Assembly (NCBI GenBank): GCA_030684775.1
Contig: JAUXXW010000055.1
Coordinates: 1 to 45,192, forward strand
Length of the DNA: 45,192 nt
DNA from: Pseudomonadota bacterium
Lineage (GTDB): Bacteria; Pseudomonadota; Gammaproteobacteria; Burkholderiales; Thiobacillaceae
Direction of reading: 5' to 3'
Shown here: positions 5,430-28,558 of the stretch, in pieces
Position numbering within the stretch: the stretch's first letter is position 1
Layout: the number at the start of each line of letters is the position of its first letter
The notes under the pieces: model-generated
What the model saw: only the letters and a program-made list of their open reading frames with translations
What the model was told of the DNA's origin: nothing
Database searches by the model: none
Made by a program: the position numbers and the translations under genes

Positions 5430-5499
5430 GTAGGTTGGGCAAAGCGCAGCGTGCCCAACATGGCGACAGGTCGTTGGGCACGCGCAGCGACGCCCAACG
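5430..5499. repeat. Interspersed palindromic repeat, copy B
   Basis: Contains GTAGGTTGGGCAAAGCGCAG CGTGCCCAAC followed by a second arm GTTGGGCACGCGCAGCGACG CCCAAC. It is the same family as the copies at both window ends. It lies in the non-coding stretch after malQ-treY and carries no gene. Confidence 0.8.
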
Positions 5500-10742: not shown

Positions 10743-11390
10743 ATGAACCCAATCGATCTCGCCATGCCCGCGTCCATCCGCCGCATCAACCTGTTCGGCT
10801 GCCGGCGTAGCGGCACCAATTACCTGGGCGCGCTCCTGGTCCGCAACCTGGACGTCCGCCTGACGCCGGAAGCCTTTTCCTTCAAGCACGACCCGCCCAC
10901 GCCCCGCCTCCTGGCGCAACTGGCGGGCGACAAGGGCCGCGATCTGCTGTGTCTGATCTGCGTGCGGCATCCGGCGACCTGGATGGTCAGCCGCCTGATC
11001 TGGGCGCGCGAGAACCCCGCTTCCGGGCCGGCGGATGCGGGTTTTCTCTGTCGCCGTTACAACGACCGCTACCGCACCTGGTTCGATCTGGTGGCGCGCC
11101 ATCCCGAGCACGCGGCCTGGGTTCGTTACGAAGACCTCCTGGACGACCCCGCCGCCTGCCTGGCGGGTCTGCGCCGGTGTTTTCCGCTGCCGGCGCGCGG
11201 GCCGGATTTCGTGGCCGTTGAGACCCGGGTGGAGACCGGGAGGCGGGTGACCAGGGCGCCGTTCGACCGCGCCGCGCACGCGCTCGACCGCTATCTGGCG
11301 CGGCTGGCGCCGGCGGACATTCAGCGGATACGCGCGGACATCGACTGGAAAAGGCTCGCCTCCCTGGGTTATCGGGCGGAAGACATGTAG
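10743..11390 (+). CDS. Sulfotransferase-like P-loop protein
   Basis: A 215-residue cytoplasmic protein resembling the sulfotransferase superfamily. It has an N-terminal P-loop-like NLFGCRRSGTNYLGALL for the PAPS 5'-phosphosulfate, and CVRHPATWMVSRLIW, which matches the RxP....S loop that holds the 3'-phosphate. It also has WVRYEDLLDDPAACLAGL, a helix typical of bacterial sulfotransferases. Such enzymes move sulfate from PAPS to sugars or small molecules. It ends 37 bases before the convergent glycan cluster, so a role in decorating that glycan is conceivable but not shown. The start at 10743 lacks a clear Shine-Dalgarno. It is short for the family, so it may be a minimal version. Confidence 0.65.
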   Translation: MNPIDLAMPASIRRINLFGCRRSGTNYLGALLVRNLDVRLTPEAFSFKHDPPTPRLLAQLAGDKGRDLLCLICVRHPATWMVSRLIWARENPASGPADAGFLCRRYNDRYRTWFDLVARHPEHAAWVRYEDLLDDPAACLAGLRRCFPLPARGPDFVAVETRVETGRRVTRAPFDRAAHALDRYLARLAPADIQRIRADIDWKRLASLGYRAEDM

Positions 11391-11407
11391 CGCGGGCGCT
11401 ACATGTC
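11382..11407. terminator. Bidirectional hairpin between convergent genes
   Basis: A perfect 12-bp stem, GACATGTAGCGC with GCGCTACATGTC, separated by GG. It overlaps the stop codon (TAG) of the sulfotransferase-like gene and lies 20 bp from the end of the convergent GH13-like gene. Placement suggests it ends transcription from both sides; there is no strong U-run. Confidence 0.6.
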
Positions 11408-11426
11408 CAGCCGATAGCCCCTGACC

Positions 11427-14012: not shown

Positions 14013-14154
14013 ACTAAAAACCGCAGTTGGCACTGGTGTGGGTGCGAATTTATTCGCACATTCAAGGACTTCGGTGCGAATAAATTCGCATCTACAACAC
14101 TCGCGCAACTTGTTGAATTGGAATGACTTCCTCTTGCAACTGAGGTTTTTAGGT
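14013..14154. repeat. Palindromic junction element 1 (between pentapeptide and GH13-like genes)
   Basis: The ends are inverted copies of CTAAAAACC(T/G)CAGTTG. The interior has an 18-bp palindrome arm GTGCGAATTTATTCGCAC at 14042-14059, a 14-nt loop, the complementary arm at 14074-14090, then a ~45-bp unique tail. It fills exactly the space between the stop of one gene (TGA inside ATGA at 14155-14158) and the start of the next (14012). GGTTCAT flanks both sides as a probable target duplication. A near-identical element, with its tail inverted, is at 17728-17869. Confidence 0.85.
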
Positions 14155-15201
14155 TCATGCCTTACCTGTAGCGCCGGCGGCTCGCCGGCGAGCCGCCGGC
14201 ACTACGGGCCACAGGGTGCGGCCGGGGGTCTCGATGCGCAGCAGCGCCGGGCCGGAGCCGGCGGCGAGGCGTTCGCCCAGGGTTTCCAGGGCGGCGGGGT
14301 CGGGGCCGACCAGGACCGCCGCTGCTTCCACAAAGTCGATGCTTTCCAGCACCACTCCGGCCTGCCGCGTCCAGGCCAGGAGTTCGGCCAGTTCCCACTC
14401 GCCCAGGGGGGCGGCGTAGACCAAGCGCAGCTCGCCGCTTTCAGCCGGCAGCAGGTTCAGATTCGCGTCGCGCGCCGGCGCGTGTTCGCGGTCTTCGCCG
14501 AGAAAGGCGGCTTCCGCCATCAGGCTGCGCATCCCCCGGGTGCGGGCGCCGTCCAGTTTGGCGCCACTGAGCAGGGCATGGGAGAGGTCGGCGTCGCGCA
14601 GGTCGGCCGTTTCCAGGTCGCAGCCTTCCAGGTCGACGCCGACCAGGCTGGCGCCCTGGAGACAGGCGCCGCGCAGGTCGGACTCCGCCAGACAGGCTTG
14701 ATCCAGCCGGGCGCCGCGCAGGTTGGCTTGCGCCAGGCGGCTGCGGCGCAAGTCGGCATCGATCAGGTTCGCGCCGCGCAGGTCGGCCCGCTCCAGGCGG
14801 GCGCCGCGCAGCCGCGCCTGGCCGCCCAGGTTGGCGCGGTGCAGGCAGACCGCCGCGCCGCGCGCCTTTTCCAGGACCGCGCCGTAGAGGTTGGCATCGA
14901 CCAGGTCGCAGCCGGCCAGGAGGGCGCCGGAGAGGTCGGCGCCGCCCAGGCCGGCGCCGCGCAATCGGGCTTGACGCAGATCGGCCCGCTCCAGGCGGGC
15001 CTCGTTGAGGAATACCCCGGAAATATCCGCGCCGCGCAGGTCGGCGCGGCGCAGATCGACCTCGGCTAGGTTCCAGTCGCGGCCCAGGCGATAGCCGCGC
15101 AGCACCAGCCGCTCGCCGGCCGCGCCGCCGGTTTTTCCACTCAACCAGGCCCGGTGCCGCGACAGCGCGAGCCAGAAACGGTCTTCGTCGAGGTCGATCA
15201 T
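14155..15201 (-). CDS. Pentapeptide-repeat protein with a unique C-terminal domain
   Basis: A 348-residue protein. Residues ~35-230 are about 35 tandem A(D/N)Lxx-type pentapeptides (RADLRGADISGVFLNEARL and onward), which fold as a right-handed quadrilateral beta-helix. Residues ~250-348 are a separate non-repeat domain (NLLPAESGELRLVYAAPLGE..., then LLRIETPGRTLWPVVPAARR) that I do not recognise. There is no signal peptide or membrane helix, so it is probably cytosolic, perhaps a scaffold for the enzymes of the cluster. The ATG at 15201 overlaps the stop of the preceding glycosyltransferase by four bases (ATGA), showing translational coupling; the frame extends eight codons further but without a better start. 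Fluoroquinolone-resistance-type function is possible for this fold but not suggested by context. Confidence 0.85.
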   Translation of the reverse strand: MIDLDEDRFWLALSRHRAWLSGKTGGAAGERLVLRGYRLGRDWNLAEVDLRRADLRGADISGVFLNEARLERADLRQARLRGAGLGGADLSGALLAGCDLVDANLYGAVLEKARGAAVCLHRANLGGQARLRGARLERADLRGANLIDADLRRSRLAQANLRGARLDQACLAESDLRGACLQGASLVGVDLEGCDLETADLRDADLSHALLSGAKLDGARTRGMRSLMAEAAFLGEDREHAPARDANLNLLPAESGELRLVYAAPLGEWELAELLAWTRQAGVVLESIDFVEAAAVLVGPDPAALETLGERLAAGSGPALLRIETPGRTLWPVVPAARRRAAGATGKA

Positions 15202-16133
15202 GGTCGTCGCCGCGCCAGGCAGCATTCCACCACCTCGGCGAGGCGGTCTTCGTGGCGGTATTCGCGGCGCACCCAGGCGGACTGTTCGCTATGGCGCCGC
15301 TCGGCGTAGCCCGCCGGGCCGGCGAGGATGGCCGCCTTTTCCCGTTCCAGCATCGCGCGCAGGCGGCCGCGATCCCAGTCCCAGGAGAAGAAGCCGGGGC
15401 TGTCGGCGAGATGGCGTTCCCGCAGCCAGGTTCGGCTGGGAGCGACGATCCAGTTGCCGGCGGCGAGGTTCTCCAGCAGGGGCAGGCCGAAGCACTCGTA
15501 GAAGGTGAGGAAGAAGAAATGACAACGCCGGTACAGGTCGAATATCTGCTCCGGGCCGTAATCCTGGTTGTGCCGGCCGAGTTCGACGATGGGGATGTGC
15601 AGGTCCGCCAGCACCCGGCGCGCCACCTCGTAATTGGCTCGGGTGTGGCTGGGAGAACACTCCAAGTTGCCGCCGTGGTCCTCCGGGTGGCCCTGGCGCC
15701 AGTGGTCGATCAGCGCCAGCGGCAGCGCGGGCTTGGCCGGTTGCAGGCATTCCTCGGGCAGGAGGTAGCCGATCTGCGCCTGGCGCGGGTCGGCGTCCGC
15801 GCCGAGGCGGCCGACGATGAGCTGATAGTCCACGGCGGTATGCGGGATGGGACCGTTCTCCAGTTCGTAGGGGACGATGCTGCCGACCAGAACCGGGCCG
15901 CGCAGGCGTTGCCGCAATTCCCGGCCCTGGTGGAAGAACAGGTGCGACATGTCGAACACGAAGTTGAGGTCGGCGTTCTCGGGCGGCTCGAAGCGGGGCT
16001 GCCGGGGAACGCCGAGAAAGTCCCATTCCAGCACCTGTGCCTCGGGGTAGTGGGCTCGGAACCAGCGCAACACCCCGCGCGCCTGGTTGGCGGGGGAGTT
16101 GTTGGTGAAGGGGTAGAAGAAGTTGGCGATCAC
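15198..16133 (-). CDS. Glycosyltransferase with EX7E motif (GT-B fold)
   Basis: A 311-residue protein starting at GTG 16133, which overlaps the stop of the PIG-L gene by four bases (GTGA). Its first residues, VIANFFYPFTNNSPANQARG, replace the usual glycine-rich GT-B opening. The C-terminal half has FFFLTFYECFGLPLLENLAAG, the E-x7-E motif that binds the nucleotide-sugar phosphate in GT4-type retaining enzymes. The frame continues upstream through the PIG-L gene, but that part is a shadow. Acceptor and donor are unknown; the N-terminal half is unusual enough that the family assignment is only to the GT-B superfamily. It probably adds one sugar in the pathway encoded by this cluster. Confidence 0.75.
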   Translation of the reverse strand: MIANFFYPFTNNSPANQARGVLRWFRAHYPEAQVLEWDFLGVPRQPRFEPPENADLNFVFDMSHLFFHQGRELRQRLRGPVLVGSIVPYELENGPIPHTAVDYQLIVGRLGADADPRQAQIGYLLPEECLQPAKPALPLALIDHWRQGHPEDHGGNLECSPSHTRANYEVARRVLADLHIPIVELGRHNQDYGPEQIFDLYRRCHFFFLTFYECFGLPLLENLAAGNWIVAPSRTWLRERHLADSPGFFSWDWDRGRLRAMLEREKAAILAGPAGYAERRHSEQSAWVRREYRHEDRLAEVVECCLARRRP

Positions 16134-16720
16134 GGCCTTTCCTCCGGCAACGGCCAGGCCCGCCAATAACGCTCCGGCTCGCCGCGAAAATGCCGGGTGA
16201 CGTGGCGCTGCGTGCGGTAGTCGAGGAGGGCGGCGTCCTTGCGCGCCTGTTCCTCGGCGCCGGCTTGCAGTACACGGTCCGGCGGGCGCAGCGGGTACAG
16301 CGGCGCGACCGGGTATTGCCACAGTTCCACGCCCCATTCCTGCGCCAGAATCAGGGCCAGGGCGCCGACCTTGGCGTGGTCCGGATGCTCGTCCTCGATG
16401 GCGTGGGCGTAGAGCCGCCGCGGCGGCAGCGGGAACAGGGCGCGCAGGCGGGACAGCACCGCCAGCGGCGAGAAGACCCATTCCGGCTCGCCCAGAAAAT
16501 GGACGCGGGGGATGCCCAACCGCGCTAGCGCCGCCCGGCTTTCCGCCTCGCGCTCCACCACCAGATCAGCCTGGGGCAACTCGGGTCGGGCCGGATCGGC
16601 GCCGAGGCCGCCGTCGGTCACCACCACCACCACGGCGTCCGAGTCGCGTTGCAACAGGATGCCGCAGCCGATCACCTCGTCGTCCGGATGCGCCGCCAGG
16701 ACCAGGGTTTGCGGAGTCAC
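16130..16720 (-). CDS. PIG-L/LmbE-family N-acetylsugar deacetylase
   Basis: A 196-residue single-domain enzyme. It has the two zinc-binding motifs of the family: AAHPDDEVIGCG near the N-terminus and DEHPDHAKVGAL in the middle. These enzymes remove acetyl from N-acetylglucosaminyl groups (MshB, BshB, GlcNAc-PI deacetylase), and often follow a GT4 enzyme that installs the GlcNAc. The start is GTG 16720, overlapping the previous gene's TAG by one base (TAGTG). It lies between two glycosyltransferase genes and is the stand-alone counterpart of the PIG-L domain inside the fusion at 17870-20959. Substrate is inferred from family and context only. Confidence 0.9.
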   Translation of the reverse strand: MTPQTLVLAAHPDDEVIGCGILLQRDSDAVVVVVTDGGLGADPARPELPQADLVVEREAESRAALARLGIPRVHFLGEPEWVFSPLAVLSRLRALFPLPPRRLYAHAIEDEHPDHAKVGALALILAQEWGVELWQYPVAPLYPLRPPDRVLQAGAEEQARKDAALLDYRTQRHVTRHFRGEPERYWRAWPLPEERP

Positions 16721-17727
16721 TACAGCCCTCCCAGCCAGTCCAGCCAGGCGTCGATCACGCGGTCGCAGCGGAAACGCGCCTGGTAGTGGGCGCGGCCGGC
16801 CCGCGAATAACCCCGCCAGGACTCATGGTCGGCGGCCAGTTCGGCGATCTTTTCGGCCCACGGCGCCGGTTCCAGGGGCAAGCAGAGGCCGCCGGGCCCC
16901 ACGGTGTCGGGCAGGGCGCCGCGCGGGCTGGCCAGCACAACCGTGCCCACCGCCTGCGCCTCGATGGCGACCATCGAGCAGGATTCGTCCACGTCGGCCG
17001 GAATCAGCAGGAAATGGTGGCCGGCCAGGCGCCGCAGCAGATCGCGGTTGGCGACGTTGCCGTGGAATTCGACCGCGCTTCGCTCCACCTTCGCCAGGGC
17101 GGCCTCGACTCGGGGCAGGTAGTGCCGGTCGCAGTGCAGGCGCACGATGTCCGCCGGACTGCCCCACAGGGAATGCGAGCCGTAAAGGTGCAAGCGTGCG
17201 TCCGGCCGGATCGGCAACAGCTCGGCGAGCACTTCCAGGGCGAAATCGACGCCGCGCCCCTTGATGAACATGCCGGCGAAGCACAGGCTCAGGGGCTCCG
17301 TCTCCGTTCGCGGGATGTCCACTATTTCCAGCGGGTTGGTCGAGTTGAGCAGGGGGATGCCCGCCTCCGGGTAGAGGCTGCCGAGGAAGGGGGAGACGGT
17401 GATGGCGCCGTCGTAATGGTGGCGGTAACGGCGGAAGTCGGCCTGCTGGTCGATGTCGTGCAGCCAGAGGATGCGACGGTTCGCCGCCACGTCGAGATAG
17501 TCATTGATGAAGGACGGCTCGCGGCAGATCACCAGGACGTCGTAACGCGCCGGGACGGGTTGGTCGAGATCGACCCGGTGGCCGCGCCGGCGCAGTTCGT
17601 TCATCACCCGCAGCAGGGAAATGAGAGTACCGCCGATGTAACTGCCGTCGGGGTTGACCCGGTCCAGCTTGGCCGGATCGGGTTGTTTCCAGTCCTCGCC
17701 GGCAAGGTAGACGAACAGCCAGTTCAT
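16720..17727 (-). CDS. GT4-family glycosyltransferase
   Basis: A 335-residue GT-B enzyme. The N-terminal domain begins MNWLFVYLAGEDWKQPDP and contains GSYIGGTLISLLRVMNELRR, a variant of the glycine-rich acceptor-domain loop. The C-terminal domain has LCFAGMFIKGRGVDFALEVL and DESCSMVAIEAQAVG, the E-x7-E donor-binding motif. The family uses UDP- or GDP-sugars with retention of configuration. The ATG at 17727 sits at the edge of a palindromic element (17728-17869), whose terminal GAGG, eight bases before the ATG, may act as the Shine-Dalgarno. The stop overlaps the PIG-L start by one base, so the two are coupled and may act in sequence. Confidence 0.9.
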   Translation of the reverse strand: MNWLFVYLAGEDWKQPDPAKLDRVNPDGSYIGGTLISLLRVMNELRRRGHRVDLDQPVPARYDVLVICREPSFINDYLDVAANRRILWLHDIDQQADFRRYRHHYDGAITVSPFLGSLYPEAGIPLLNSTNPLEIVDIPRTETEPLSLCFAGMFIKGRGVDFALEVLAELLPIRPDARLHLYGSHSLWGSPADIVRLHCDRHYLPRVEAALAKVERSAVEFHGNVANRDLLRRLAGHHFLLIPADVDESCSMVAIEAQAVGTVVLASPRGALPDTVGPGGLCLPLEPAPWAEKIAELAADHESWRGYSRAGRAHYQARFRCDRVIDAWLDWLGGL

Positions 17728-17869
17728 ACTAATAACCTCAGTTGCATGAGGAAGTCATTCCAATTCAACAAGTTGCGCGAGTGTTGTAGGTGCGAATTTA
17801 TTCGCACATTCAAGGACTTCGGTGCGAATAAATTCGCACCTACGTCGGCGCCAACTGAGGAATTTAGGT
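17728..17869. repeat. Palindromic junction element 2 (between the tri-domain GT and the GT4 gene)
   Basis: Same family as 14013-14154: CTAA(A/T)AACCTCAGTTG-like inverted ends, arms GTGCGAATTTATTCGCAC at 17790-17807 and its complement at 17822-17839. The ~45-bp tail lies on the opposite side, as an inverted copy, while the 14-nt loop ATTCAAGGACTTCG keeps the same orientation in both. GTTCAT flanks both sides. It exactly separates the stop at 17870 from the start at 17727. Confidence 0.85.
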
Positions 17870-20800
17870 TCATGGTTCCAGGCTCCGCCCCAATATCCGC
17901 TCGAACAGTGCCCGCCACTGCGCCCGGATCGGCCCCCAGGTGAGGCCGCGCACATAGTCCAGGGCGGCCGCCACCCGTGGTGCCGGATCCAGTTCGCCGC
18001 GCGCCAGGGCGACGATGCTGTCAGCCATCGCGGTGACGCTGACCGGGGCGCGCGGCAGCGGTTCGGCGTAGGCGTGGTAGACCCAGGCATCCACTTCCTC
18101 GCGGCAGGGGACGAGGAAGCCGCGGCCGTCGCCGAGGAGGCCGCTGAACGAGGTGTTGTCCGGCGCCAGCACCGGGATGCCGCAGGCCATCGCCTCGGTG
18201 GTGGAAAAGCCGTGGCCCTCGCCGTGGCTGGTGGTAATCAGCAGGTCGGCGCAGTTGTACAGCCGCGCCATGTCGGCGTTGCTGGCCGCGTCCACGGCGT
18301 GGGGTTCGCTGTTGCGGCCGAACTGTTGTTGCGAGAAACCCAGGTCGCGCGCGGACAGCCCCAGGACGCGGGCGATTTCGATCAGTTCGTAGTCGCCTTC
18401 GCCGGGGTTGGTGTGCAGGTGCAGATAAACCCGGGGTTCGCGCCGCAGTACTTCCTTGAGAATCAGCAGACTGCGCGGCAAGTCCTTGCGCTGGTAGTTG
18501 CGGTTGATGTTGAGCAGGACGTAGCGCCCTTCTTCGGCGACGTGGCGCGGCAGCAGGGCGCGGCGCAGTTCGGCGCGGCGTGGCGCGGCCAGGGGGAAAT
18601 AGGTCCGGGTGTCGCAGCCGTGCGGTATGAGCGCGGCGCGCGCGGCCAGGGCGGGGTCGTGGCGCCGCACCTGTTCCAGGGAGTAGTCGTTGAACAGTAC
18701 CAGGTGCTCGAAGCCGCGCATCCCCTCCAGGTGGCGATGGCACAACTCACCCTCCACCGGGGTGTAGACGATGGAACGGAAGCGTTTGCCCTGTTCGCGC
18801 AGTTGCCGCGCGGCCTCGCCCACGGCGGCGTTGCCGTAGACGTCCTTGATCATCAGCAACAGTTCGAAATCCATGTGCCCGAGCAGTTCCAGCAGGTCGC
18901 GGCGGTCGTCGACGGGGTGGATGCGATACGGTTCTTCGAGGTCGCCGGGCCACAGATGCGGCACCAGCAGGATGACCTCGAACCAGGCGTGGAAGGCCCG
19001 CGCCAGGTTGCGCACCACCTGGCCGAAGCCGGTAGGGCCGTTGGGGGATTCGGAGACCAGTACTAGGCGCGGGTGGGTGGTGGCGACTGGCAGGGGGAGA
19101 TGGTGGCTGCCGGTACGTTGTTCAGCCGCGGCTCCCTTGCCCCCAGCCCCTCTCCCAGAAGGAAAGGGGAGTAAGGCCGTCAGGGCGAACGCCTCGGCGT
19201 ATTCGCCCCGGCCCAGAGCAAGGCCGCGGTGGCGGTTGAGGGCGAGGAGAGCGTGGCCGTAGTCGAAGTAAGCGAGTTGGCTATGGAACTCGGCGATGGC
19301 GGCGCGCTTGTTTTCCAGCACCGGGCCGATGTCCGCGACCAGATCGACCTTGGGCAAGGGCGTCCACACCTCGTACAGGCGTAGTTCGCGCCCCCCCACC
19401 GCAGCGAGTACCGCCCGCCCGGCGGCGGCGTGGTCGGGGTGCGATTCTTGTGGATGCGGGGCGTAGACCAGGTCGGCGTTCCAGTCCGCGATCTCGGCGC
19501 GCAGGCGTTCAGCGAGGTCGGCTACCTCCGCCAGGCCGCCGTCCGGCAAGCCCAGGAGCCGGAGTTCGCCGCCGCCGAGGTGGTCCAGGGCGCGTTCGCT
19601 TTCGCGCCGACGCAAGCGCATCAGGCGTTCGCGGCCGTAGCCCGGCGCGCCGCTGTTCGCGCCGTCGCTGAGATAGAGCACGCGAACCGCGTCACCCGCC
19701 GCGCGGTGCAGAGCCAGGGCACCGCCGCAACCGAGGACTTCGTCGTCGAAATGTGGCGCGACCACCAGCACCCGCTGCCCGCCCACCGCAAGCAAACGCG
19801 GGCAACGTGCCGGTGAGGGGGCCGGATGGCCGAGGCCGGCGGCCAAGGCCTGCTCATAAGCGGCGGCCAGTTGCCGCTCCACCCGGTCGGCGCCGAACAG
19901 GGCGTGGGCGTGTGCCAGGGCGCCTTCGCGGCAACGGCGCAGCCAGGCCGCGTCGCCGCCCAGGGCGAGCACAGCCCGCGCCAGCGCCGCCGCGTCGCCG
20001 GGCGGCAGCAGCACGCCGGTGTGGCCATCGATCATCCAGTCGACGATGGCGCCGGCGCGGCTGGCCAGCACCGGCAGGCCCCGGCTCATGGCCTCGACTC
20101 CGGCCATGCAATAGCTCTCCGGCACCAGGGAGGGGACCAGCAGCAGGTTGGCGCGGTCGTAGACCCGCCACAAGTCCGGCCCATTCAACTCGCCGAGGAA
20201 TTCGACGCGATCCGCCACGCCCTGGTCGCGGCAGACCTGGCGCAGCCAGTCCGCCTCGCGCCCGCTGCCCGCCAGAGCCAGGCGCCAGCTTCGCGGCAGC
20301 CGCGCGAGCATCTGGGGCAACAGGTAGATGCCCTTGTTGCGATCCAGGCGGCCGACGTAGAGCAGCAGGCCGGTTTCCGGCGCCGGCGCGGGTGTTTGCG
20401 CCAGGGGCGCGGCCAGTACCGGCAACACCTCCGCCAGACGGTCGTCTGGGAAGCCGTTGCGCCGGTATTGCTCGCGCATGTAGCGGCTGTGTACCAGCAT
20501 CGTGGCGCCGCGCAGGGCGTCGAGACGGTCTAGCTTGATCGCCAGATCGCGCTCGCCGGCCTCGATGCGCGCTTCCGGCATCCCCCAACTGGGCGCGGCG
20601 GGGCAGCCGCGGGCGCGGCAATGTTGGCCCAGGGGCAGGTCGCAGAAACCGCCGCCAGGCAATTCCTTGCGCCCGGTCAGGCACAAGGGGCTGACGTCGT
20701 AGGCCGTGCTCAGGCTGGGGAAGCGGGTGACGATGCCGCGCATCACGGCGGCGTCGAGGCGGTGTTCGAGGTGATGGAGATGCACCAGGTGCGGCCGCTC

Positions 20801-20959
20801 GCGGGCGATGGCGTCCAGCAGTTCCACTCCCGCCAGGCTCGCCACGTCCAGGTTGCGGACCTCGTGGCCGAGTTCGCGGCTCAAGCGGATGTAGTTGGCG
20901 GCGGCCACCGCCACGCCGCCCCGCAAGTCGCGCGGCGGGTAGAGGTGGAGGATTCTCAT
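17870..20959 (-). CDS. GT4 - PIG-L deacetylase - GT4 fusion protein
   Basis: A 1029-residue three-domain enzyme. Residues ~1-375 are a GT4 domain opening MRILHLYPPRDLRGGVAVAA, with a four-cysteine loop (C-x13-C-x7-C-x4-C) after YDVSPL and the E-x7-E motif ESYCMAGVEAMSRG. Residues ~395-600 are an apparently intact PIG-L deacetylase: H403-F-D405-D406-E and H507-P-D-H510. A repeat-derived linker (FPSGRGAGGKGAAA) follows. Residues ~630-1029 are a second GT with HGEGHGFSTTEAMACG (E-x7-E intact). The architecture suggests transfer of a HexNAc, deacetylation and addition of the next sugar on one chain. The start at 20959 overlaps the upstream stop by four bases (ATGA); the frame runs 14 codons further without support. 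It is the paralogue of the next gene upstream. Confidence 0.88.
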   Translation of the reverse strand: MRILHLYPPRDLRGGVAVAAANYIRLSRELGHEVRNLDVASLAGVELLDAIARERPHLVHLHHLEHRLDAAVMRGIVTRFPSLSTAYDVSPLCLTGRKELPGGGFCDLPLGQHCRARGCPAAPSWGMPEARIEAGERDLAIKLDRLDALRGATMLVHSRYMREQYRRNGFPDDRLAEVLPVLAAPLAQTPAPAPETGLLLYVGRLDRNKGIYLLPQMLARLPRSWRLALAGSGREADWLRQVCRDQGVADRVEFLGELNGPDLWRVYDRANLLLVPSLVPESYCMAGVEAMSRGLPVLASRAGAIVDWMIDGHTGVLLPPGDAAALARAVLALGGDAAWLRRCREGALAHAHALFGADRVERQLAAAYEQALAAGLGHPAPSPARCPRLLAVGGQRVLVVAPHFDDEVLGCGGALALHRAAGDAVRVLYLSDGANSGAPGYGRERLMRLRRRESERALDHLGGGELRLLGLPDGGLAEVADLAERLRAEIADWNADLVYAPHPQESHPDHAAAGRAVLAAVGGRELRLYEVWTPLPKVDLVADIGPVLENKRAAIAEFHSQLAYFDYGHALLALNRHRGLALGRGEYAEAFALTALLPFPSGRGAGGKGAAAEQRTGSHHLPLPVATTHPRLVLVSESPNGPTGFGQVVRNLARAFHAWFEVILLVPHLWPGDLEEPYRIHPVDDRRDLLELLGHMDFELLLMIKDVYGNAAVGEAARQLREQGKRFRSIVYTPVEGELCHRHLEGMRGFEHLVLFNDYSLEQVRRHDPALAARAALIPHGCDTRTYFPLAAPRRAELRRALLPRHVAEEGRYVLLNINRNYQRKDLPRSLLILKEVLRREPRVYLHLHTNPGEGDYELIEIARVLGLSARDLGFSQQQFGRNSEPHAVDAASNADMARLYNCADLLITTSHGEGHGFSTTEAMACGIPVLAPDNTSFSGLLGDGRGFLVPCREEVDAWVYHAYAEPLPRAPVSVTAMADSIVALARGELDPAPRVAAALDYVRGLTWGPIRAQWRALFERILGRSLEP
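19131..19172. repeat. GC-rich palindromic repeat inside the tri-domain GT coding sequence
   Basis: CTCCCTTGCCCCCAGCCCCT followed by CTCCCAGAAGGAAAGGGGAG, the same family as 13787-13832 and 30094-30150. It is translated in frame as a flexible Gly/Ser/Lys stretch precisely in the linker between the PIG-L and the second GT domain. Confidence 0.8.
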
Positions 20960-23772
20960 GGCCGTTCTCCCGCCGGCACCGCCCCCAGCATGACTTCCCA
21001 CCGCGAGATCATCTGTTCCCAGTCATGCGCCTTCAGCCAGGCGCGGGTTTGCGCGCCGAGTCGGCGCGGCGCGCGCGGCATCTCCGCCTGTTGCCGCATG
21101 GCGGCCAGCAGGGCGGCGCCGTCCAGCGGCCGGCGCGGGATGGCGGCGTCGAAGTGGATCGCGGCGGGGTCGTCCGACCTGGGCACAACGCTGCCGCGAC
21201 CGTCGCCCAGCAGCTCCCGCGCCAGAGGGGCGTCGCCGGCGATGACGGGCAGGCCGCAGGCGATGGCTTCCAGCACGGCCAGGCCGTGGTCGAGGCCGAA
21301 GCCGCAGGCCACAAAAACGTCGGCCGCGTTGTAGAGGTCGCACAGGTCGGCGTCAGCCAGGATGTCCTCGCGCCCGGCGGGGGCGTCGTCGCGGTCCAGC
21401 GCCTGCAGGGAAAAGCCGAGGTGGCGCGCGTCCAGGCCCAGGCCGCGCGCCAGTGCGACCAAGTCGTGATGGCCGGAGAAGGGATGGGTATGCAGGTGCA
21501 GATAGGCGCGCGGGGTGTGTTCCAGGAGCCGGGCGAAACTTAGCAACAGGGCCGGCAACTGCTTGCGCTCGCGATTGCGGCCGATGCCGAGGAACACCGT
21601 CCAGTCCTGTTCCACTACATGCGCCGGGAGCAGATCGGCGCGGGCTGCGCGGCGGTCGCCTTCCGAGTAGGGGAAATACTCGTCGCGATCCACCGCCGCC
21701 GTGGGGAACTCCACCGCCTCGCCGAGACGGCAACTCAGGATCGGCAATTCCGGACGTCGCGCCCGCAACTGTTCCAGCCAGACGCCGCGGGGATCGCCGG
21801 GCGAGCGCCGCGACAGGTCGATGGCCGCCGCCAGATCGAGGCCGGCGAGCAGGTCCACATCCGGGCCGAGGCGGGAACCGTCGATGTAGCGCACGGGCAG
21901 ATCCAGGTCGCGCAGCCACACACGGGGCGCCATCACCACGAGATCGAGCCGGTGGCGCCGTTGCAGCGGCAGGAACAAACGGCGCAGCAACTTGCCCTCC
22001 GCGCCGGGGGCGGAAGGCGATTCGGACAGGAGCAGCAGGCGCCGACCATGCGGTGGCGCCGTGGGACGCTCCCGTGAAACCCGGCGCAGAGCCTCGCCCC
22101 AGCGCCCCGCCAGCCCGCTCGCCAGGCCGCCGCGATAGGCGTCAAGGGCGAGCGCGGCCGCGGCGGCCGGGTAGGCGAAACGGGCGAGCAGGCGCCGCTT
22201 CGTCTCGATGCCGTCGCTCATTTCCACCACTTGGTCGGCCTGGATCGGGCTCAGTTCCTCGTACTCGTGGATCGCCACGCCCGGCTTCAGGCCGGGTGGC
22301 GGGGCGTGGCCCGGCGGCAGCAGCACGGCCTCGGGGTCCAGGTCAGCGAGGCGTACGCCCAGATCGGCGCGGGGCCAGAGTTCCACAGCGGTACCCAGGG
22401 TTTCGGCCAGCCAGGCCGCGTGTTCGGGTGGACTATCGGCATCCGGCGCAATCGCGACGCGGGTCGCCGTCCGCGCCGCCAGCCCCGCCAACAGGCCGCC
22501 GCAGCCGGCGACGATGTTTGCCACAGTTTCACCCAGTACCAGGCAACGCGACCAGACCGGGCAGGCGACCAGGGGCAAGGCGGCGTCGACCGGCGGCGCG
22601 GGCCGCGTCGTCTCGATCGGGTCCGCTTGCCTCGCCAGAGCCGCGGCGTAGAGGTCGGCGAGCACCTCGCCGTCGGCGTCCGCGGTGAAATGTTCACGCG
22701 CGTATTGCCAACCCCGTTCGCCGAGGCCGCCGCGCAGTTCAGGGTCGGCCAGTACCCGGTCCACGGCGGCGGCGAAGGCCAGGGGGTCGGCGCGCCGGAT
22801 CAGGAGGGCGGTCTCGCCGTCGCGCAGCCACTCCCCCAGCGCCCCGGCGGCCAGGGCCACCAGCGCCAGGCCGCGGCTCAGGGCTTCCGCCGCCACCTGG
22901 GAAAAGCTCTCCGCCACCAGGGAAGGGATCACCAGGCAGTCGGCTCGGTCGTAGAACGCCGGCAGTTCGGCCGGCGGCAAAAAACCGTGGAAGCGCGCCC
23001 GGCCGGCCAGGCCAAGGCGGTGGAAATGTTGCTCGACCTCGTCGCGCGAATCGGCGTCGCCCACCAGGTCCAGCGACCAGTCCACAGATTGCAGGTGGCG
23101 CAACACTTCGGCCAAAAAAAAGATGCCCTTGTCCGCTTCCACCCGGCCCACGAACAAAAGCCGCCGCCCCACCCCGAGCGTGCGCCTGGGCGCGGGGCTC
23201 GGCGGCGCGTGGACCGGCGGCGGCAGAATCCGAACGTCCTCGGCGAGGAAGCCGTTGCGCAGCAATTCGTCGCGCAGATAGCCGCCGGGCGCGGTGAGCA
23301 TCGCGTGGCGCAAGGGGGCGAGCCGGGCCAGCATGGCCTCGACGCGAGCGCCATCGATGCTAGTGAAATCGCTCAATCCCCAGGCGCTGAAGGCGGGGCA
23401 ACGGGCGGCGACGCAGCTGCGGCCCATCGCCTGCCGGCAGGGTTCGCCGTCGGCGAGAATCTTGCGTTGGCTGGGGCAGATCAGGCGCACGTCGTAGATG
23501 CTGAACAGGCAACGGTGGCGCCGCGCCAGTTCAGGGGCGAGGCCCTGGTCGAGCATCGCGAAGGCGTTGTGGACGTGGACCAGGTCGGGCGCCAGGCGGT
23601 CGATTTCTTCGAGCAACTGGAAGCCGTAACGGCCTTCCGTGTCGGCCAGGGTCAGGCTATGGACTTCGTGGCCCAGGGCCTGGCCCTGGCGGAGGTAGTG
23701 GGCGCAGGCGATTTCGGCGCCACCCTGGCGGGCGAGTGCTCCTATCCGGTCGCTCAGGTGGATAACTCGCAC
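20956..23772 (-). CDS. GT4 - degenerate PIG-L - GT protein (paralogue of the fusion at 17870-20959)
   Basis: A 938-residue protein. Residues ~1-385 are a GT4 domain with RQGGAEIACAHYLRQG near the start, the same four-cysteine loop as its paralogue (after YDVRLI) and ESFSQVAAEALSRG (E-x7-E). The middle ~405-590 aligns by eye with PIG-L: RCLVLGETVANIVAGCGG replaces VLVVAPHFDDEVLGCGG, and no HPDH block remains, so zinc binding is lost. The last ~330 residues are a second GT domain (ILSCRLGEAVEF, YLHLHTHPFSGHHDLV), but its motif reads LDHGLAVLEAIACG and lacks the first Glu. Start is GTG 23772, one base after the stop of the 66-residue ORF (TGATGTG); upstream frame to 24057 is a shadow of that ORF. 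Only the first GT domain looks fully active. Confidence 0.85.
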   Translation of the reverse strand: MRVIHLSDRIGALARQGGAEIACAHYLRQGQALGHEVHSLTLADTEGRYGFQLLEEIDRLAPDLVHVHNAFAMLDQGLAPELARRHRCLFSIYDVRLICPSQRKILADGEPCRQAMGRSCVAARCPAFSAWGLSDFTSIDGARVEAMLARLAPLRHAMLTAPGGYLRDELLRNGFLAEDVRILPPPVHAPPSPAPRRTLGVGRRLLFVGRVEADKGIFFLAEVLRHLQSVDWSLDLVGDADSRDEVEQHFHRLGLAGRARFHGFLPPAELPAFYDRADCLVIPSLVAESFSQVAAEALSRGLALVALAAGALGEWLRDGETALLIRRADPLAFAAAVDRVLADPELRGGLGERGWQYAREHFTADADGEVLADLYAAALARQADPIETTRPAPPVDAALPLVACPVWSRCLVLGETVANIVAGCGGLLAGLAARTATRVAIAPDADSPPEHAAWLAETLGTAVELWPRADLGVRLADLDPEAVLLPPGHAPPPGLKPGVAIHEYEELSPIQADQVVEMSDGIETKRRLLARFAYPAAAAALALDAYRGGLASGLAGRWGEALRRVSRERPTAPPHGRRLLLLSESPSAPGAEGKLLRRLFLPLQRRHRLDLVVMAPRVWLRDLDLPVRYIDGSRLGPDVDLLAGLDLAAAIDLSRRSPGDPRGVWLEQLRARRPELPILSCRLGEAVEFPTAAVDRDEYFPYSEGDRRAARADLLPAHVVEQDWTVFLGIGRNRERKQLPALLLSFARLLEHTPRAYLHLHTHPFSGHHDLVALARGLGLDARHLGFSLQALDRDDAPAGREDILADADLCDLYNAADVFVACGFGLDHGLAVLEAIACGLPVIAGDAPLARELLGDGRGSVVPRSDDPAAIHFDAAIPRRPLDGAALLAAMRQQAEMPRAPRRLGAQTRAWLKAHDWEQMISRWEVMLGAVPAGERP

Positions 23773-23773
23773 A

Positions 23774-23974
23774 TCAACTTCCGGATGGCGGGTTGTACAG
23801 GCTGGCACCGGTGATCGAGCCCTCCCGCTCGATGTCGCCCAGGCTGCGCTGGGCGGTCTCCCGCAGTGATTCCCAGTCCCGGATGCCGCGCAATTTGCCG
23901 GGTACCCGGCATTTCCGGGTTTCTTCTCCCCGGTCTTCGTCGTCCTGGCGGTTCTGTTCCACAGGTTCTCGCAT
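23774..23974 (-). CDS. Small unknown protein, 66 residues
   Basis: A short reading frame beginning MREPVEQNRQDDEDRGEETR and ending GSITGASLYNPPSGS. It is charged in the first half and has a helix-like middle (DWESLRETAQRSLGDIEREG). Codon third positions are GC-rich like real genes nearby, and its stop is separated by one base from the GTG start of the large GT gene, so it is probably translated. Alternative starts are further up (TTG at 24016). No signal peptide, membrane segment or recognised family. Because a radical SAM protein gene lies just upstream, a modified-peptide role was considered, but there is no cysteine-rich or leader/core signature. Function unknown. Confidence 0.5.
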   Translation of the reverse strand: MREPVEQNRQDDEDRGEETRKCRVPGKLRGIRDWESLRETAQRSLGDIEREGSITGASLYNPPSGS

Positions 23975-24208
23975 AGTTTTAGTCGTCTTTTCATGCTCGG
24001 GGACTCGGGCGGACAAGCGCTGATTGAACGTACACCCGTAAGGGCATTCTGGGTCACGGGGGGGAAGTGTTCAAGAACGCAGTTCCGGAAAAAACAGTAG
24101 CGGGGTAAATGGTGAGGTGTAAGAGCCCGACAAGCTGCCAGCCCCTCTTACGCAACCATTGCGGGCCGCCGCCCGCATCGCGGTCGGGAGGCCGCTCCCA
24201 CAACACAC
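23975..24208. other. Intergenic stretch with a REP-like palindrome
   Basis: No gene is apparent. Around 24155-24205 there is a REP-like sequence (GGGCCGCCGCCCGCATCGCG, then GTCGGGAGGCCGCTCCCAC) with several overlapping inverted repeats. It separates the radical SAM gene from the rest of the minus-strand cluster and could attenuate or stabilise the shared transcript. I cannot point to a promoter here. Confidence 0.5.
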
Positions 24209-25159
24209 CTACCGGATGGGCTGAAGCTCGTCCCTCGGCGCCAGGGCATAAGCGCGGCCGTCGCGCCCCGCCCATTCCCGCGCCAGTGCCTCCAGCCGGG
24301 CGAACTCTGCGACCGGCATCCGCTGGCGCTTTTCCTGACAGGGGTTGCACTGGCCGAAGCGCTCACAGGGTATCCAGTCCCGGTTGATTTCGGCGAAATT
24401 CGCGGCGCGGGCGCGAGTCAGCAAGTTGGCCCTGGCTTCGAGCCGCAGGTACATCTTGGAGAAGCAGTCGTACACGTCGCCGTTGGGGGCGATAACTATG
24501 TGGCCGGGGTCGCACAGCACCCGCCGTTGCAACAGGAAAGCGCTTTGCAAGTATTCCTCGGGTAGGTCAGTGCGTCCAAAATCGACTTCCAGCCCCAGGC
24601 CGGCCATGGCGGTGGCCACGGTCTCCTGCTCCGTGATCGCCGTCGCGCCGTTGTCGCGGGCCATGACGTTGACCACGATGCGCCGGCAAATCCCCGCCTC
24701 GCGCAGCTTCGCCACCCGCACCGCGTAGCTGTCCGGCGCGTGGTATTCGGGGTGGTAGGACAGGTAACACGACTCGATCCGCCGGCTGCCGCGACCTAGC
24801 GCGTCGGCGAAGACATCGACATCGAAGTCGAGATTGGAATTGACCTTGACGGCATAGCCTTCCAGACCCTTGAGGATGTCCGCGAAGCCGCGGTGCAGCG
24901 TCGGCTCGCCGCCGGTGAAAATGAGGTAGTCGGGACGATTGGCGACGCCGTTGAGGGCGCGTATCCACTCGTCCGGAGCCAGCATCGGGAAGCCTATCCG
25001 GCTGCGCTGGCCCCGCACCTGATACATGGTCCGGTCGAAGGTGCAGTAGGCGCAGTGAAAGTTGCAGGCCGTGGTCAGGGCTACATACCAAGTGCGCAGC
25101 TCCGGCAGGCGCAACGGCTCAGCAGGGTGAGGAGTATCGGGTGTGGATGCGGGTTTCAT
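24209..25159 (-). CDS. Radical SAM protein with SPASM/twitch-like C-terminal cysteines
   Basis: A 316-residue enzyme. The CX3CX2C cluster-binding motif is C32-NFH-C36-AY-C39 in LTTACNFHCAYCTFDRTMYQ, followed by the GGEP motif (LIFTGGEPTLHRGF) for S-adenosylmethionine. The C-terminal part has CDPGHIVIAPNGDVYDC and a C265/C271/C274 group (WIPCERFGQCNPC), as in SPASM or twitch auxiliary-cluster domains. Such enzymes carry out radical chemistry on peptides, sugars or nucleotides. It leads the minus-strand cluster of glycosyltransferases, so a sugar or lipid-linked intermediate is a plausible substrate; a peptide is the alternative. The ATG at 25159 was chosen because the preceding 50 codons lack family character. 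The binding-site residues are seen; the reaction is unknown. Confidence 0.88.
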   Translation of the reverse strand: MKPASTPDTPHPAEPLRLPELRTWYVALTTACNFHCAYCTFDRTMYQVRGQRSRIGFPMLAPDEWIRALNGVANRPDYLIFTGGEPTLHRGFADILKGLEGYAVKVNSNLDFDVDVFADALGRGSRRIESCYLSYHPEYHAPDSYAVRVAKLREAGICRRIVVNVMARDNGATAITEQETVATAMAGLGLEVDFGRTDLPEEYLQSAFLLQRRVLCDPGHIVIAPNGDVYDCFSKMYLRLEARANLLTRARAANFAEINRDWIPCERFGQCNPCQEKRQRMPVAEFARLEALAREWAGRDGRAYALAPRDELQPIR

Positions 25160-25510
25160 GCGGGAGTCTCCATGAGCGACGACGGATGGCCGTGCCGGGG
25201 AAATTGCCGAATGAGGCCGCCGTATGGGATTCAGTATCCATTCTTCGCCGCCAGATGAACAAGCTCCGGCCCATAGTGGGGGGCGCTCAACTTGCATGAG
25301 GGATTTCATCTTGGCCTACATGAATCGGGCCTGCCTTCCGCTGTAATTTCAGAGGGGCAGGTGTCTCGGGGGATATTGGCACGGGGGGGCAGCGCTCGAA
25401 ATAAGTTTGCTCGACAGGTGCGCCAGCGAACGGAGCAATGCTAAAAAGAGGAAGACAGTGAGTTCGAGTAATCCACCGTGAACACGGTACAACCCGCAAT
25501 GGAGAAAAGT
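25160..25510. other. Divergent intergenic region, glycan cluster versus yqjD operon
   Basis: About 350 bases with no gene. It must hold the divergent promoters of the radical SAM gene (minus) and the yqjD-like gene (plus). A weak minus-strand candidate is TTGTTC (25257-25262), 18 bp, GATACT (25233-25238); I do not consider it firm. No convincing plus-strand promoter was found. GGAG at 25501-25504 is the Shine-Dalgarno for 25511. Confidence 0.4.
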
Positions 25511-25825
25511 ATGGAAAAGCTCGCTAATGAAGTCACCAAAGAACAATTGCTCGCTGATTTCAGCGTTGTGGTAGCGGATGCGGAAGCGTTGCTCAAAGCG
25601 ACCGCCAATCAGGGCGGCGAGAAGCTGGCCGAGGTGCGCGCCAAGGCGGAAGAGTCCTTGCGGATCATGAAGGACAGGATGGTCGACGCGCAGGAGGCTC
25701 TGGTGGTCAAAACCAAAGCGGCGGCCAAGGCGACCGACGTTTATGTCCATGAGAATCCCTGGAATGCCGTCGGCGCCGCCGCCGCGCTTGGCTTGCTGAT
25801 CGGTTTTCTCATCGGCCGCCGCTAG
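25511..25825 (+). CDS. YqjD/ElaB-family (DUF883) ribosome/membrane-associated protein
   Basis: A 104-residue protein: a long amphipathic helical region rich in Ala, Glu and Lys (LADFSVVVADAEALLKATAN..., AEVRAKAEESLRIMKDRM), then the family signature VHENPWNAVGAAAALGLLIGFLIGRR, a single C-terminal membrane segment with a glycine zipper and an arginine end. E. coli YqjD and ElaB attach to the inner membrane and bind ribosomes in stationary phase. The start at 25511 was chosen over GTG 25478 and ATG 25499 because GGAG lies six bases before it and the length then matches the family (~100 residues). First gene of a three-gene unit. Confidence 0.9.
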   Translation: MEKLANEVTKEQLLADFSVVVADAEALLKATANQGGEKLAEVRAKAEESLRIMKDRMVDAQEALVVKTKAAAKATDVYVHENPWNAVGAAAALGLLIGFLIGRR

Positions 25826-25834
25826 GCACACGCC

Positions 25835-26227
25835 ATGCCTGAGAAAACACCCGGCGCGGGCAAGGGGTTGCTTGAGTCCCTGACCGCGCTGGCGGCAACA
25901 CTGGTTGCCATCGCCTATACGCGTCTCGATCTGTTGTCCTCGGACCTGGAGGAGGAGCGGGCGCATTTGTTCTCGCTGTTGCTGTTGGCGCTGGTCTCCC
26001 TGTTTTGCCTCGGGGTGGGGGTGTTGCTGGCAACACTGCTGCTGGTGGTTGCCTTCTGGGACACCCATCGCCTCCTGGTCCTGGCAACGCTTGCCGGATT
26101 GTTCCTGGCGTCTGGCGCTGCCGCGTGGGGATTCGCCGTCCACAAAGCGAGAACCAAGCCGAGGCTCTTCGCCGCGAGCATGTCGGAGTTATTGAAAGAC
26201 CGGCAGCAACTCGTTTCCCGTTCATGA
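25835..26227 (+). CDS. YqjE-like / phage holin superfamily III membrane protein
   Basis: A 130-residue inner-membrane protein. After a short polar start it has an amphipathic segment (LESLTALAATLVAIAYTRLDLLSSDLEEER) and two transmembrane helices (LLLALVSLFCLGVGVLLATLL and LLVLATLAGLFLASGAAAWG) joined by a tight turn, then a basic tail. This is the YqjE layout. It follows the yqjD-like gene by nine bases and its stop overlaps the next start (ATGA), so the three genes are co-translated. Function in E. coli is poorly defined; membrane stress or stationary-phase adaptation is the usual guess. Confidence 0.85.
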   Translation: MPEKTPGAGKGLLESLTALAATLVAIAYTRLDLLSSDLEEERAHLFSLLLLALVSLFCLGVGVLLATLLLVVAFWDTHRLLVLATLAGLFLASGAAAWGFAVHKARTKPRLFAASMSELLKDRQQLVSRS

Positions 26228-26502
26228 GAAAAAACCTGGCGCAGCTGGCCGAACGGCGTGAACACCTGGTTGCGCGGGCCGCGGCGCAACGAACCGTGCT
26301 GGCGGAAAGCATCGAGCCGTGGCGCGCGCCCCTGGCCTGGGCTGACCGAGGGCTTGCCATGCTGAGCGTGCTCAAGCGTCATCCCGTCTGGATAGTCGGC
26401 GGTGTCGCCGCGTTTGCGTCGTTGCGGATTGATCGCGCCGGGAAATGGCTGCGGCGTGGTTGGGTCACCTGGCAGGTCGTGCAAAAACTGCGCGGCAGGT
26501 AA
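26224..26502 (+). CDS. YqjK-like small protein
   Basis: A 92-residue basic protein. It opens MRKNLAQLAERREHLVARAA, a charged helix typical of YqjK-like proteins, and has a single hydrophobic segment HPVWIVGGVAAFASLRI followed by a basic end (KWLRRGWVTWQVVQKLRGR). The ATG at 26224 overlaps the yqjE-like stop by four bases, which fixes the start. Third and last gene of the yqjDEK-like unit. Assignment rests on size, charge pattern and the conserved gene order. Confidence 0.75.
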   Translation: MRKNLAQLAERREHLVARAAAQRTVLAESIEPWRAPLAWADRGLAMLSVLKRHPVWIVGGVAAFASLRIDRAGKWLRRGWVTWQVVQKLRGR

Positions 26503-26539
26503 CCGGAGACTTGAAAACCCGGGGTAGCGGCTCGCGGCC

Positions 26540-27090
26540 TATCGGACTTTGGTTCGTCGATAGCGAAAAGCAATCCCGGCGAGGCCGGAGTTTCAGCCGA
26601 CGACTGCAAAGGTGGAGTGTGCCGTCCAGGTTGTCGTCGTCCGTTTCCGGTGGCCATTTCCATCATCTTCTTCCACCGGGGCTTCCAGCCAAGTGCTTGA
26701 TGAGGCGCAACTCAGACCGATCAACTATCCGGCGGGCTATGCTCTTCATCCATTCAGCGTGCGGAATGCTGTCGAAATAGCCAGACAGGTACGCGCCGAT
26801 GAACCGCTCGTACCGCGTCTTGCGCCCCGTGCTCTGCCCGGTAGCCGTATTGCTACGGTTGCGGAACCGCTTCAAAAAGAGGTTCCGGTACGAGCATGGC
26901 GACAGTTTGCACAACCCGGTCGCTGATCGTCGGCATCCCCAGGGGACGCGGTCTGCCCTTCGGTTTCGGTATCCAGACCCATTTGACCGCTTCAGGTTGA
27001 TCGTCTTTCTTCCTCAGCCGTTCCGCCAGTTCCCCAAGGGCCGTTGCCCATTGGAACCACCGAAACGGGAAGCAAGCCGGAACCGCTTGC
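26540..27090 (-). pseudogene. Broken group II intron reverse transcriptase (LtrA-like) fragment
   Basis: Pieces of an intron-encoded reverse transcriptase appear in order, but in different minus-strand frames. KWVWIPKPKGRPRPLGMPTI then SDRVVQTVAMLVPEPLFEAV lies at ~26990-26870 in one frame. A stop follows, then YGYRAEHGAQDAV in that frame, then GYFDSIPHAEWMKSIARRIV and DRSELRLIKHLAG in another at ~26790-26690. A blurred continuation runs toward 26540. The catalytic YADD region, maturase and intron RNA domains are not visible. It is therefore a dead 5' portion. It abuts the 3' end of nuoN (27104), so insertion or deletion here may have reshaped the operon end. Confidence 0.8.
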
Positions 27091-27103
27091 CCCCCTATCT
27101 CCG

Positions 27104-28558
27104 CTATTGCATCGACATCTGCATCGCGTAGACGCAGAGGGCAATCAACCCTTGTGGCGCAAGACCCAACAGCAGAACCGCCAAGCCATTGATCGAGAGC
27201 AGCGCGCGGCTGTCCGCCTGGCCTGAAAGTATCGGTGCGTCGGCGTGCGGGGTATCGAAGTAGAGAATCTTCACCACGCGCAGGTAATAGTAGGCGCCGA
27301 TCAGCGAGAACAGCACCGCCACCAAGGCCAGCCACAACCAGCCGGCGCCGACCAGAGCTTGCAACACGGATAGTTTGGCGTAGAAGCCGACAAAGGGAGG
27401 CAGACCCGCCATGGAGAACATCAACATGGCCATCAGCGCGGCCAGCCAGGGTTGGCGCTGGTTGAGGCCCTTGAAATCGTCCAGGCTCTCCGCTTCGTAG
27501 CCGTTCTGCGACAGGTACACGACCAGCCCGAAGGTGCCCAGGCTCATCAACACATAGACGATGGCATAGAACATGGAGACCGAGTAACCGGCGAAGGTGC
27601 CGGACAGAATACCCAACAGCATGAAGCCCATGTGCGAGATGGTGGAGTAGGCCAGCATGCGCTTGATGTTGGTCTGCATGATGGCGGCCAGGTTGCCGAT
27701 CGCCAGACTGAGCACCGCCATCACCGCCAGCATGCCCTGCCATTCCGCGACGGCGGGTTGCAGGCCATCGACCAGGATGCGCATGGTGAAGGCGAAGGCG
27801 GCCAGTTTCGGCGCGGAACCGATGAACAGGGTCACGGCGCTTGGCGCACCCTGGTAGACGTCCGGCACCCACATGTGGAAAGGGGCGACGCCCAGCTTGA
27901 AGCCGAGACCGGCGACCAGGAAGACCAGGCCGAAACTGAGCAACATGGGGTTACCGACGCCCATGTAGACGGTGGCCGCCATCTTGTTCAACTCCAGCGT
28001 GCCGGTGAGGCCGTAGAGGATGGACATGCCGTAGAGCAGGAGACCGGAGGCCAGCGCCCCCAGCACGAAATACTTCATCGCCGCCTCGGTGGCCCGGGCG
28101 TTGTCCCGATGGAAAGCCACCAGCGCGTAGAGCGACAGCGAGAGCAGTTCCAGGCCGACGTAGAGCACCAGGAAATGATTGGCCGAAATCATGACCATCA
28201 TGCCCAGGGTGGCGAACAACAACAGCACGAAGAACTCGCCCTTGAACAAGCCGCGCTCGGTCAAATAAACGCGCGAGTAGACCAGCACGGCGAAGGACGC
28301 CAGATAGGTCATGAGTTTCAGCACATCGGCCATCATGTCGTCGACGAACTGCCCGCCGAAGGCGTATTGCGGCGCGCCGGAAGCCGAGAAGAAGGTGAGC
28401 GCGGCGGCGCCGACCAGGGTCAGCAGGGTCAGCGTGTAAGACAACGTGCGCTGCTTGCTTATGACGTCGAGCAGCAAAATGGCGCAAGCCATGACCAGCA
28501 CGAAAATCTCGGGCAGGGCGGGGACGAGGTCGGAGAAGGTGAAGGTCATCGCGTGCAT
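27104..28558 (-). CDS. nuoN: NADH-quinone oxidoreductase subunit N
   Basis: A 484-residue antiporter-like membrane subunit of complex I with about 14 transmembrane helices. Typical blocks are [20 protein letters not shown] at the start, [20 protein letters not shown] (conserved Lys/Glu helix), [39 protein letters not shown] and [12 protein letters not shown]-like [20 protein letters not shown]. It takes part in proton pumping. It is the last nuo gene; its end lies beside the reverse transcriptase remnant, but the C-terminus ([15 protein letters not shown]) looks complete. ATG 28558 is six bases after the nuoM stop; ATG 28549 is an alternative. Confidence 0.95.

Follow-up and report, generated by a model that had tools for sequence, protein, structure and literature searches.

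Two adjacent genes in a member of the Thiobacillaceae encode large proteins that combine glycosyltransferase (GT) and PIG-L deacetylase-like domains, and that appear to be tandem copies of a single ancestor: a three-site enzyme and a twin with one remaining site. We describe this pair, P0001 and P0002, on contig JAUXXW010000055.1 of assembly GCA_030684775.1 (3.85 Mb in 227 contigs); the window that we analyze is this one entire contig, 45,192 bases in length. The 2 genes overlap by 4 bases, and their products share the layout GT4, PIG-L, GT4, where the first GT domain is termed GT-A and the second GT-B. An earlier sequence-only reading had given the coordinates, the minus strand, and the sizes of the products (1029 and 938 amino acids), all of which hold. 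Alignment of the proteins spans the whole length of both, and their similarity greatly exceeds what chance would give (BLASTP E 9e-43 over P0001 residues 13–432 in the first high-scoring segment pair and 1e-39 over residues 783–1019 in the second). Pfam matches in P0001 are GT4, PIG-L, and GT4; those in P0002 are to GTs only. The motifs of GT-A are kept in both proteins, and those of PIG-L and several of those of GT-B are lost from P0002, so that P0001 is best read as a three-site enzyme and P0002 as a one-site enzyme. This anatomy is well supported: domain layout, motifs kept and lost, and the common descent of the pair can be followed in the sequences themselves.

GT-A is intact in both proteins. 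Compared with 15 relatives, those of the 34 tree relatives that come from the pair's half of the tree, both copies keep the GG loop, H-x-H, the cysteines, G-R..K-G, and E-x7-E. The whole proteins score 136.4 (P0001) and 133.1 (P0002) bits against the Pfam Glycos_transf_1 cut-off of 26.4, and the best stretch in each is GT-A. The sequence-only reading had proposed that P0002 acts through its first GT domain only; comparison of the motifs of all 3 domains supports this domain being the only one intact.

The middle domains consist of a live and an apparently dead PIG-L. In this family, (A)H-x-DDE and H-x-DH are the metal and base motifs. Both are kept in 29 of 29 PIG-L relatives, which were collected by similarity to P0001, so that dead copies may be under-represented; another 17 viral PIG-L rows (of 74 loci) were found with patterns containing the motifs, and are excluded as evidence of conservation. 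P0001 carries both motifs, as H403-x-DDE and H507-PDH, and the aligned segment of P0002 reads GETVANIVAGCGG instead of APHFDDEVLGCGG, with HPDH gone, as the sequence-only reading had noticed. The 4 H-x-DDE positions read T, A, N, and I in P0002, the HPDH stretch is shortened, and gaps fall at 64 of the 208 PIG-L positions of P0001. The P0002 middle lies below the Pfam PIG-L cut-off, with no PIG-L row even at E up to 1. It is a PIG-L relative by hhalign (93%, with shuffled and reversed controls at or below 0.5%), and AlphaFold2 models it with a PIG-L fold from an input alignment that held PIG-L rows. The claim of a dead deacetylase would have fallen with a different fold; with that feature of the alignment in mind, the fold came out in its favor, and hhalign, AlphaFold2, and the alignments point to a PIG-L relative devoid of catalytic motifs. 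We regard the P0002 middle as related to PIG-L, yet do not class it as a deacetylase.

GT-B is likewise eroded in P0002. Motifs were counted in 39 full-length relatives from 84 loci (45 not full length were dropped, and 2 of the 39 are identical); they comprise 37 viral contigs, phage TJE1, and genome G098. Near-fixed among them are the glycine-loop TGF (37, 39, and 39 of 39), His-Gly (37 and 39), and the first Glu of E-x7-E (38), all of which are present in P0001 GT-B and none in P0002 GT-B. The R, N, R, K, and last Glu, each found in 39/39 relatives, are retained in both proteins. The sequence-only reading had recorded the loss of the first Glu, which is indeed replaced by Leu, and E-x7-E is intact in P0001 GT-B and in both GT-A domains; P0002 GT-B turns out to lack the glycine loop, His-Gly, and 44 acceptor-lobe residues as well. 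Relative to P0001, P0002 has gaps at 44 of 152 positions in the acceptor lobe and at 4 of 245 in the nucleotide lobe; the 39 relatives fill a mean of 151 acceptor-lobe positions. In the family alignment, P0002 and P0001 are 39% identical in the nucleotide lobe and 23% in the acceptor lobe; the pairwise alignment gives 37% and 31%. The ratio of the lobes is 1.70 for P0002, compared with a mean of 1.17 among the 39 relatives, whose maximum is 1.73. Given these losses and retentions, P0002 GT-B should not transfer sugar, and may still bind a nucleotide sugar.

Phylogeny places the 2 proteins together in both GT domains. P0001 and P0002 are sisters in the GT-A tree (36 rows, support 99/99) and in the GT-B tree (41 rows, 99/98). 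Thus, the entire three-domain fusion was probably duplicated, in agreement with the duplication of one triple fusion proposed in the sequence-only reading. The duplication looks old, as suggested by a GT-A identity of only 38% between the copies. End branches of GT-A are 0.81 for P0001 and 1.37 for P0002; in GT-B, the tree program flags the long P0002 branch and an odd composition in both rows.

We favor, at slightly better than even confidence, an explanation in which a single GT4-PIG-L-GT4 gene was duplicated in tandem, P0001 performs 3 consecutive steps on one chain, and P0002 performs one transfer and docks through its dead half. In P0001, GT-A would add an N-acetylated amino sugar, the PIG-L domain would then strip the acetyl group from the added sugar, and GT-B would then add the next sugar to the product. 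Transfer, de-N-acetylation, and transfer is the simplest reading from the chemistry of GT4 and PIG-L enzymes, which is established in BshA/BshB, MshA/MshB, and the teicoplanin GT and Orf2. From this chemistry we infer the identity of the sugar, the order of the steps, and the existence of a single pathway; processivity of P0001 on one chain is plausible. P0002 would contribute one glycosyl transfer via GT-A, before or after the steps of P0001. Its PIG-L and GT-B domains, dead but probably folded, would most likely act as a structural or docking module that coordinates P0002 with P0001. Docking is the least certain element of the explanation; in broader terms, the dead half may be a scaffold or regulator. 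Its persistence as an open, coding-like frame of 553 codons favors a continuing role of some kind, of which docking to P0001 is the simplest, and we rate a structural role as somewhat more probable than decay alone.

Several observations weigh against this explanation. The GT-B end branch is 4.45 in P0002 versus 1.05 in P0001, approximately 4 times longer in the dead copy, as decay would give. The PIG-L rows in the AlphaFold2 alignment could draw the model of the P0002 middle toward the PIG-L fold, and a model of whole P0002 from 2 rows has a predicted local distance difference test score of 38.9 and is not used. hhalign pairs a P0002 His (in PPGHAP) with the final His of HPDH, which the MAFFT alignments do not, such that at most one metal ligand may have a counterpart. 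The preferential keeping of the nucleotide lobe in P0002 GT-B is suggestive only, since the lobe ratio of relatives reaches 1.73 and the pairwise contrast is weaker. Finally, genome searches turn up the pair only once, which leaves selection on its dead half impossible to measure.

The strongest rival, a serious contender that we nonetheless consider less probable, is that the C-terminal half of P0002 is a decaying remnant: only GT-A stayed useful after duplication, and the remainder survives either because the time elapsed is too short or because translation has to pass through it to reach P0001. The fast evolution of P0002 GT-B described above and the gaps at 64/208 PIG-L and 44/152 acceptor-lobe positions fit this account, and the 4-base overlap with P0001 could alone keep the frame open. 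Against it, the dead half runs for its 553 codons with no stop or frameshift and with coding-like codon positions throughout, and it is still present after a duplication that, at 38% identity in GT-A, looks old. A more elaborate version of the docking explanation is rather unlikely as a whole: P0001 and P0002 would form an obligate complex in which the pseudo-deacetylase and the pseudo-GT act as docking and nucleotide-sugar-sensing modules, the GT-A of P0002 makes a primer, its dead GT-B binds a nucleoside diphosphate (NDP)-sugar via R/N/R/K and the last Glu, and the chain is handed to the 3 sites of P0001. If true, such a complex would amount to a two-gene glycan assembly line built from a duplicated, half-killed trifunctional enzyme. 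We think it improbable that the changed P0002 middle has acquired a different ligand or reaction; GalB, which is among the matches and is titled a hydratase, also has a PIG-L-like fold, yet the H-x-DDE positions read T, A, N, and I with only Glu E415 near, and the HPDH stretch is shortened. Independent origin of the 2 fusions from similar parts is very improbable, for although GT and PIG-L fusions are common (9 of 10 frames scanned), the pair has an identical three-domain order, both GT domains are sisters in the trees, and the genes are adjacent.

Under the favored explanation, P0001 predicts a defined order of steps on a single chain, and would offer a compact means of building amino-sugar linkages. 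Pseudo-domains are common; here, live and dead versions of one multidomain enzyme adjoin, and with the twins side by side the role of each dead domain is testable by removal or swap.

The distribution of the fusion was surveyed in overlapping genome sets, with counts that include the pair's own genome. P0001 has matches in 4/101 relatives, 20/369 genomes of the class, 23/399 of the order, and 8/398 of the phylum; P0002 in 1/101 relatives, 10/299 of the phylum, and 2/23 of the genus; and GT-B alone in 2/95 of the order. In the searches of class, order, and phylum with P0001 and of phylum with P0002, scoring covered the 2 top first-look candidates of each genome with an E limit of 1e-20, and in the searches of 101 relatives with either protein, 8 candidates of each genome with a limit of 1e-30; with so few candidates scored at a strict E, a divergent fusion could be missed. 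Matches outside the own genome are single GTs, lone PIG-L domains, GT4-PIG-L, or PIG-L followed by something else. Within these scoring limits, none of 31 distinct PIG-L frames recovered, one of them plasmid-borne, has a GT both before and after PIG-L. In 28 of them PIG-L starts by residue 139 with no GT match ahead, and the other 3 are GT4-PIG-L (L017, L018, and L021), ending at most 33 residues past PIG-L; all of the frames run from stop to stop, and the far end of the locus truncates some of them. The 10 frames scanned for domains comprise 3 GT4-PIG-L, 6 PIG-L-GT2, and 1 PIG-L alone. No homologous pair, which would be needed to see whether both copies keep the catalytic residues elsewhere, is found in the genome searches.

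Plasmids hold no P0001 match at 1e-20; at 1e-6, 34 records match P0001, none covering 80% among the 20 matches listed, and GT-B alone matches 4 records at 1e-5. At 1e-6, phages hold no P0002 match, and the 6 records that match P0001 do not cover 80%. Viral contigs searched with P0001, and with a two-row alignment, yield no relative. A search of genome contigs with P0002 gives one weak GT match; it needs exact short peptides and so reaches close relatives only.

Features of the gene pair and its surroundings in the window
Feature	Residues	Positions	Strand	Remarks
P0001, GT4 / PIG-L / GT4 fusion	1029 in all	17870..20959	-	motifs of all three active sites present
P0001 GT-A, GT4	1-385	19805..20959	-	GG loop, G-R..K-G, E-x7-E present
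P0001 PIG-L deacetylase domain	386-600	19160..19804	-	Pfam PIG-L (PF02585) 96.7 bits, cut-off 28.2
APHFDDE motif of P0001 (H403)	401-407	19739..19759	-
HPDH motif of P0001	507-510	19430..19441	-
P0001 GT-B, GT4-like, phrog_2170 kind	621-1029	17873..19099	-	TGFG, HGCD, RNYQRK, E-x7-E present
P0002, layout as P0001	938 in all	20956..23772	-	active-site motifs kept in GT-A only
P0002 GT-A	1-385	22618..23772	-	active-site motifs present
P0002 middle, pseudo-PIG-L	386-572	22057..22617	-
GETVANIVAGCGG in P0002, where P0001 has APHFDDEVLGCGG	414-426	22495..22533	-
P0002 GT-B, pseudo-GT	573-938	20959..22056	-	acceptor lobe eroded; nucleotide-side R/N/R/K and last Glu kept
P0005, radical SAM protein		24209..25309	-	upstream, 436 bases before P0002
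P0006, further GT4		16720..17727	-	next gene downstream of P0001
P0003, no family match		15198..16481	-	GT4-like C-terminus (ECFGLPLLE) by eye
Pentapeptide-repeat protein		14155-15225
Alpha-amylase-like protein		11427-14108		GlgB row in the PADLOC scan

In order of transcription, the neighborhood consists of the radical SAM protein, P0002, P0001, a further GT4, a GT4-like protein, a pentapeptide-repeat protein, and an alpha-amylase-like protein. Judged by its position, P0006 may act in the same pathway as the pair; the true start of P0003 probably lies well inside its open reading frame. Complex I genes lie upstream, and no sigma-70-like promoter is found in 11300-27200, where 0.9 is expected by chance. 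P0005 has no equivalog match, is weakly like the MoaA, NrdG2, and viperin models, and gives weak PADLOC pVip rows. With an E limit of 1e-15, P0005 and P0008 each match only the own genome of 61 searched and none of the 60 relatives, so the surroundings offer no conserved-context clue to the glycan.

GC content is 67–73% over 12–24 kb. At third codon positions (GC3) it is 0.82–0.88 in the pair's domains and 0.675 in the 40-residue linker of P0001, compared with 0.86 in NuoL and 0.80 in NuoG; with the GC3 of the pair's domains close to that of these 2 genes, we do not argue for a foreign island. The linker between PIG-L and GT-B of P0001 contains an in-frame, GC-rich sequence like repetitive extragenic palindromes (CTCCCC..GGGGAGGGGC..GAGGGAG type, 19064-19174), and a similar sequence, by eye, lies in the alpha-amylase-like gene (13773-13850). 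A palindromic GTGCGAATTTATTCGCAC repeat occurs in two 62-base copies, 95% alike, at 14034-14095 and 17782-17843, and 14074-14152 and 17729-17807 form 79-base inverted arms that are 96% complementary. The repeat copies flank the block of GT4, GT4-like, and pentapeptide genes, which may therefore be a separate unit.

Other features lie farther from the pair. A GTTGGGCACGC..TTTGCCCAAC-type repeat at 1-69, 5429-5498, and 45129-45192, that is, at both contig ends and at 5.4 kb, probably broke the assembly. At 50-5290 on the plus strand, one frame joins a MalQ-type 4-alpha-glucanotransferase to an alpha-amylase-family domain. By eye, ..AYLSGYFDSIPHAEWMKSIARRI.. and ..WIPKPKGRPRPLGMPTISDRVVQ.., found on the minus strand at 26663-27110 next to a complex I gene, resemble a broken group II intron reverse transcriptase, and 2 small plus-strand frames at 25478-26227 resemble the membrane proteins YqjD/ElaB and YqjE.

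Known systems share parts of this design. The P0001 middle is like the PIG-L/LmbE-like de-N-acetylases (BshB, MshB, diacetylchitobiose deacetylase, and teicoplanin Orf2) in both score and motifs; the P0002 middle is related and modeled with their fold, but lacks H-x-DDE and HPDH. Unlike these enzymes, the PIG-L of the pair sits between 2 GT4 domains. In thiol synthesis by BshA/BshB and MshA/MshB, a GT4 adds N-acetylglucosamine, which a PIG-L enzyme then deacetylates; P0001 shares this GT4-then-PIG-L logic, and has a second GT on the same chain. Bacillithiol or mycothiol synthesis itself is rejected, with scores under the NCBIfam equivalog cut-offs (BshA 90.2 versus 273.7, MshA 90.5 versus 462.5, and BshB2 64.5 versus 195.25). 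Anti-phage defense, prompted by a Pfam GT4-conflict match, is also set aside: in a scan of 8 window proteins, no PADLOC family was found for P0001 or P0002 at E up to 1e-3.

By sequence comparison, GT-B is a member of a large family found in phage contigs. Residues 634-966 of P0001 match positions 7-319 of 374 in the phrog_2170 glycosyltransferases (whole-protein E 8.7e-29, in two stretches), orf14 of Tetrasphaera phage TJE1 (phrog_2170) is 26% identical over P0001 628-1028, and at least 508 of 600 candidate stretches from IMG/VR viral contigs encode relatives. The 84 loci of GT-B relatives (80 viral and 4 others, with flanks of a few kb at most) hold no PIG-L or GT-A match at E 1e-4. In the Pseudomonas syringae lipopolysaccharide core cluster, a separate PIG-L-family deacetylase gene adjoins a GT gene (PMC8005017). 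In the open-access literature searched, we recognize no duplicated GT4-PIG-L-GT4 pair with a half-dead twin. GT4-PIG-L and PIG-L-GT2 fusions of the same phylum, as does the pair, carry GT and PIG-L on one chain; such fusions are common, and the new part, judged by the genome searches and this literature, is the duplicated three-domain fusion with its half-dead twin.
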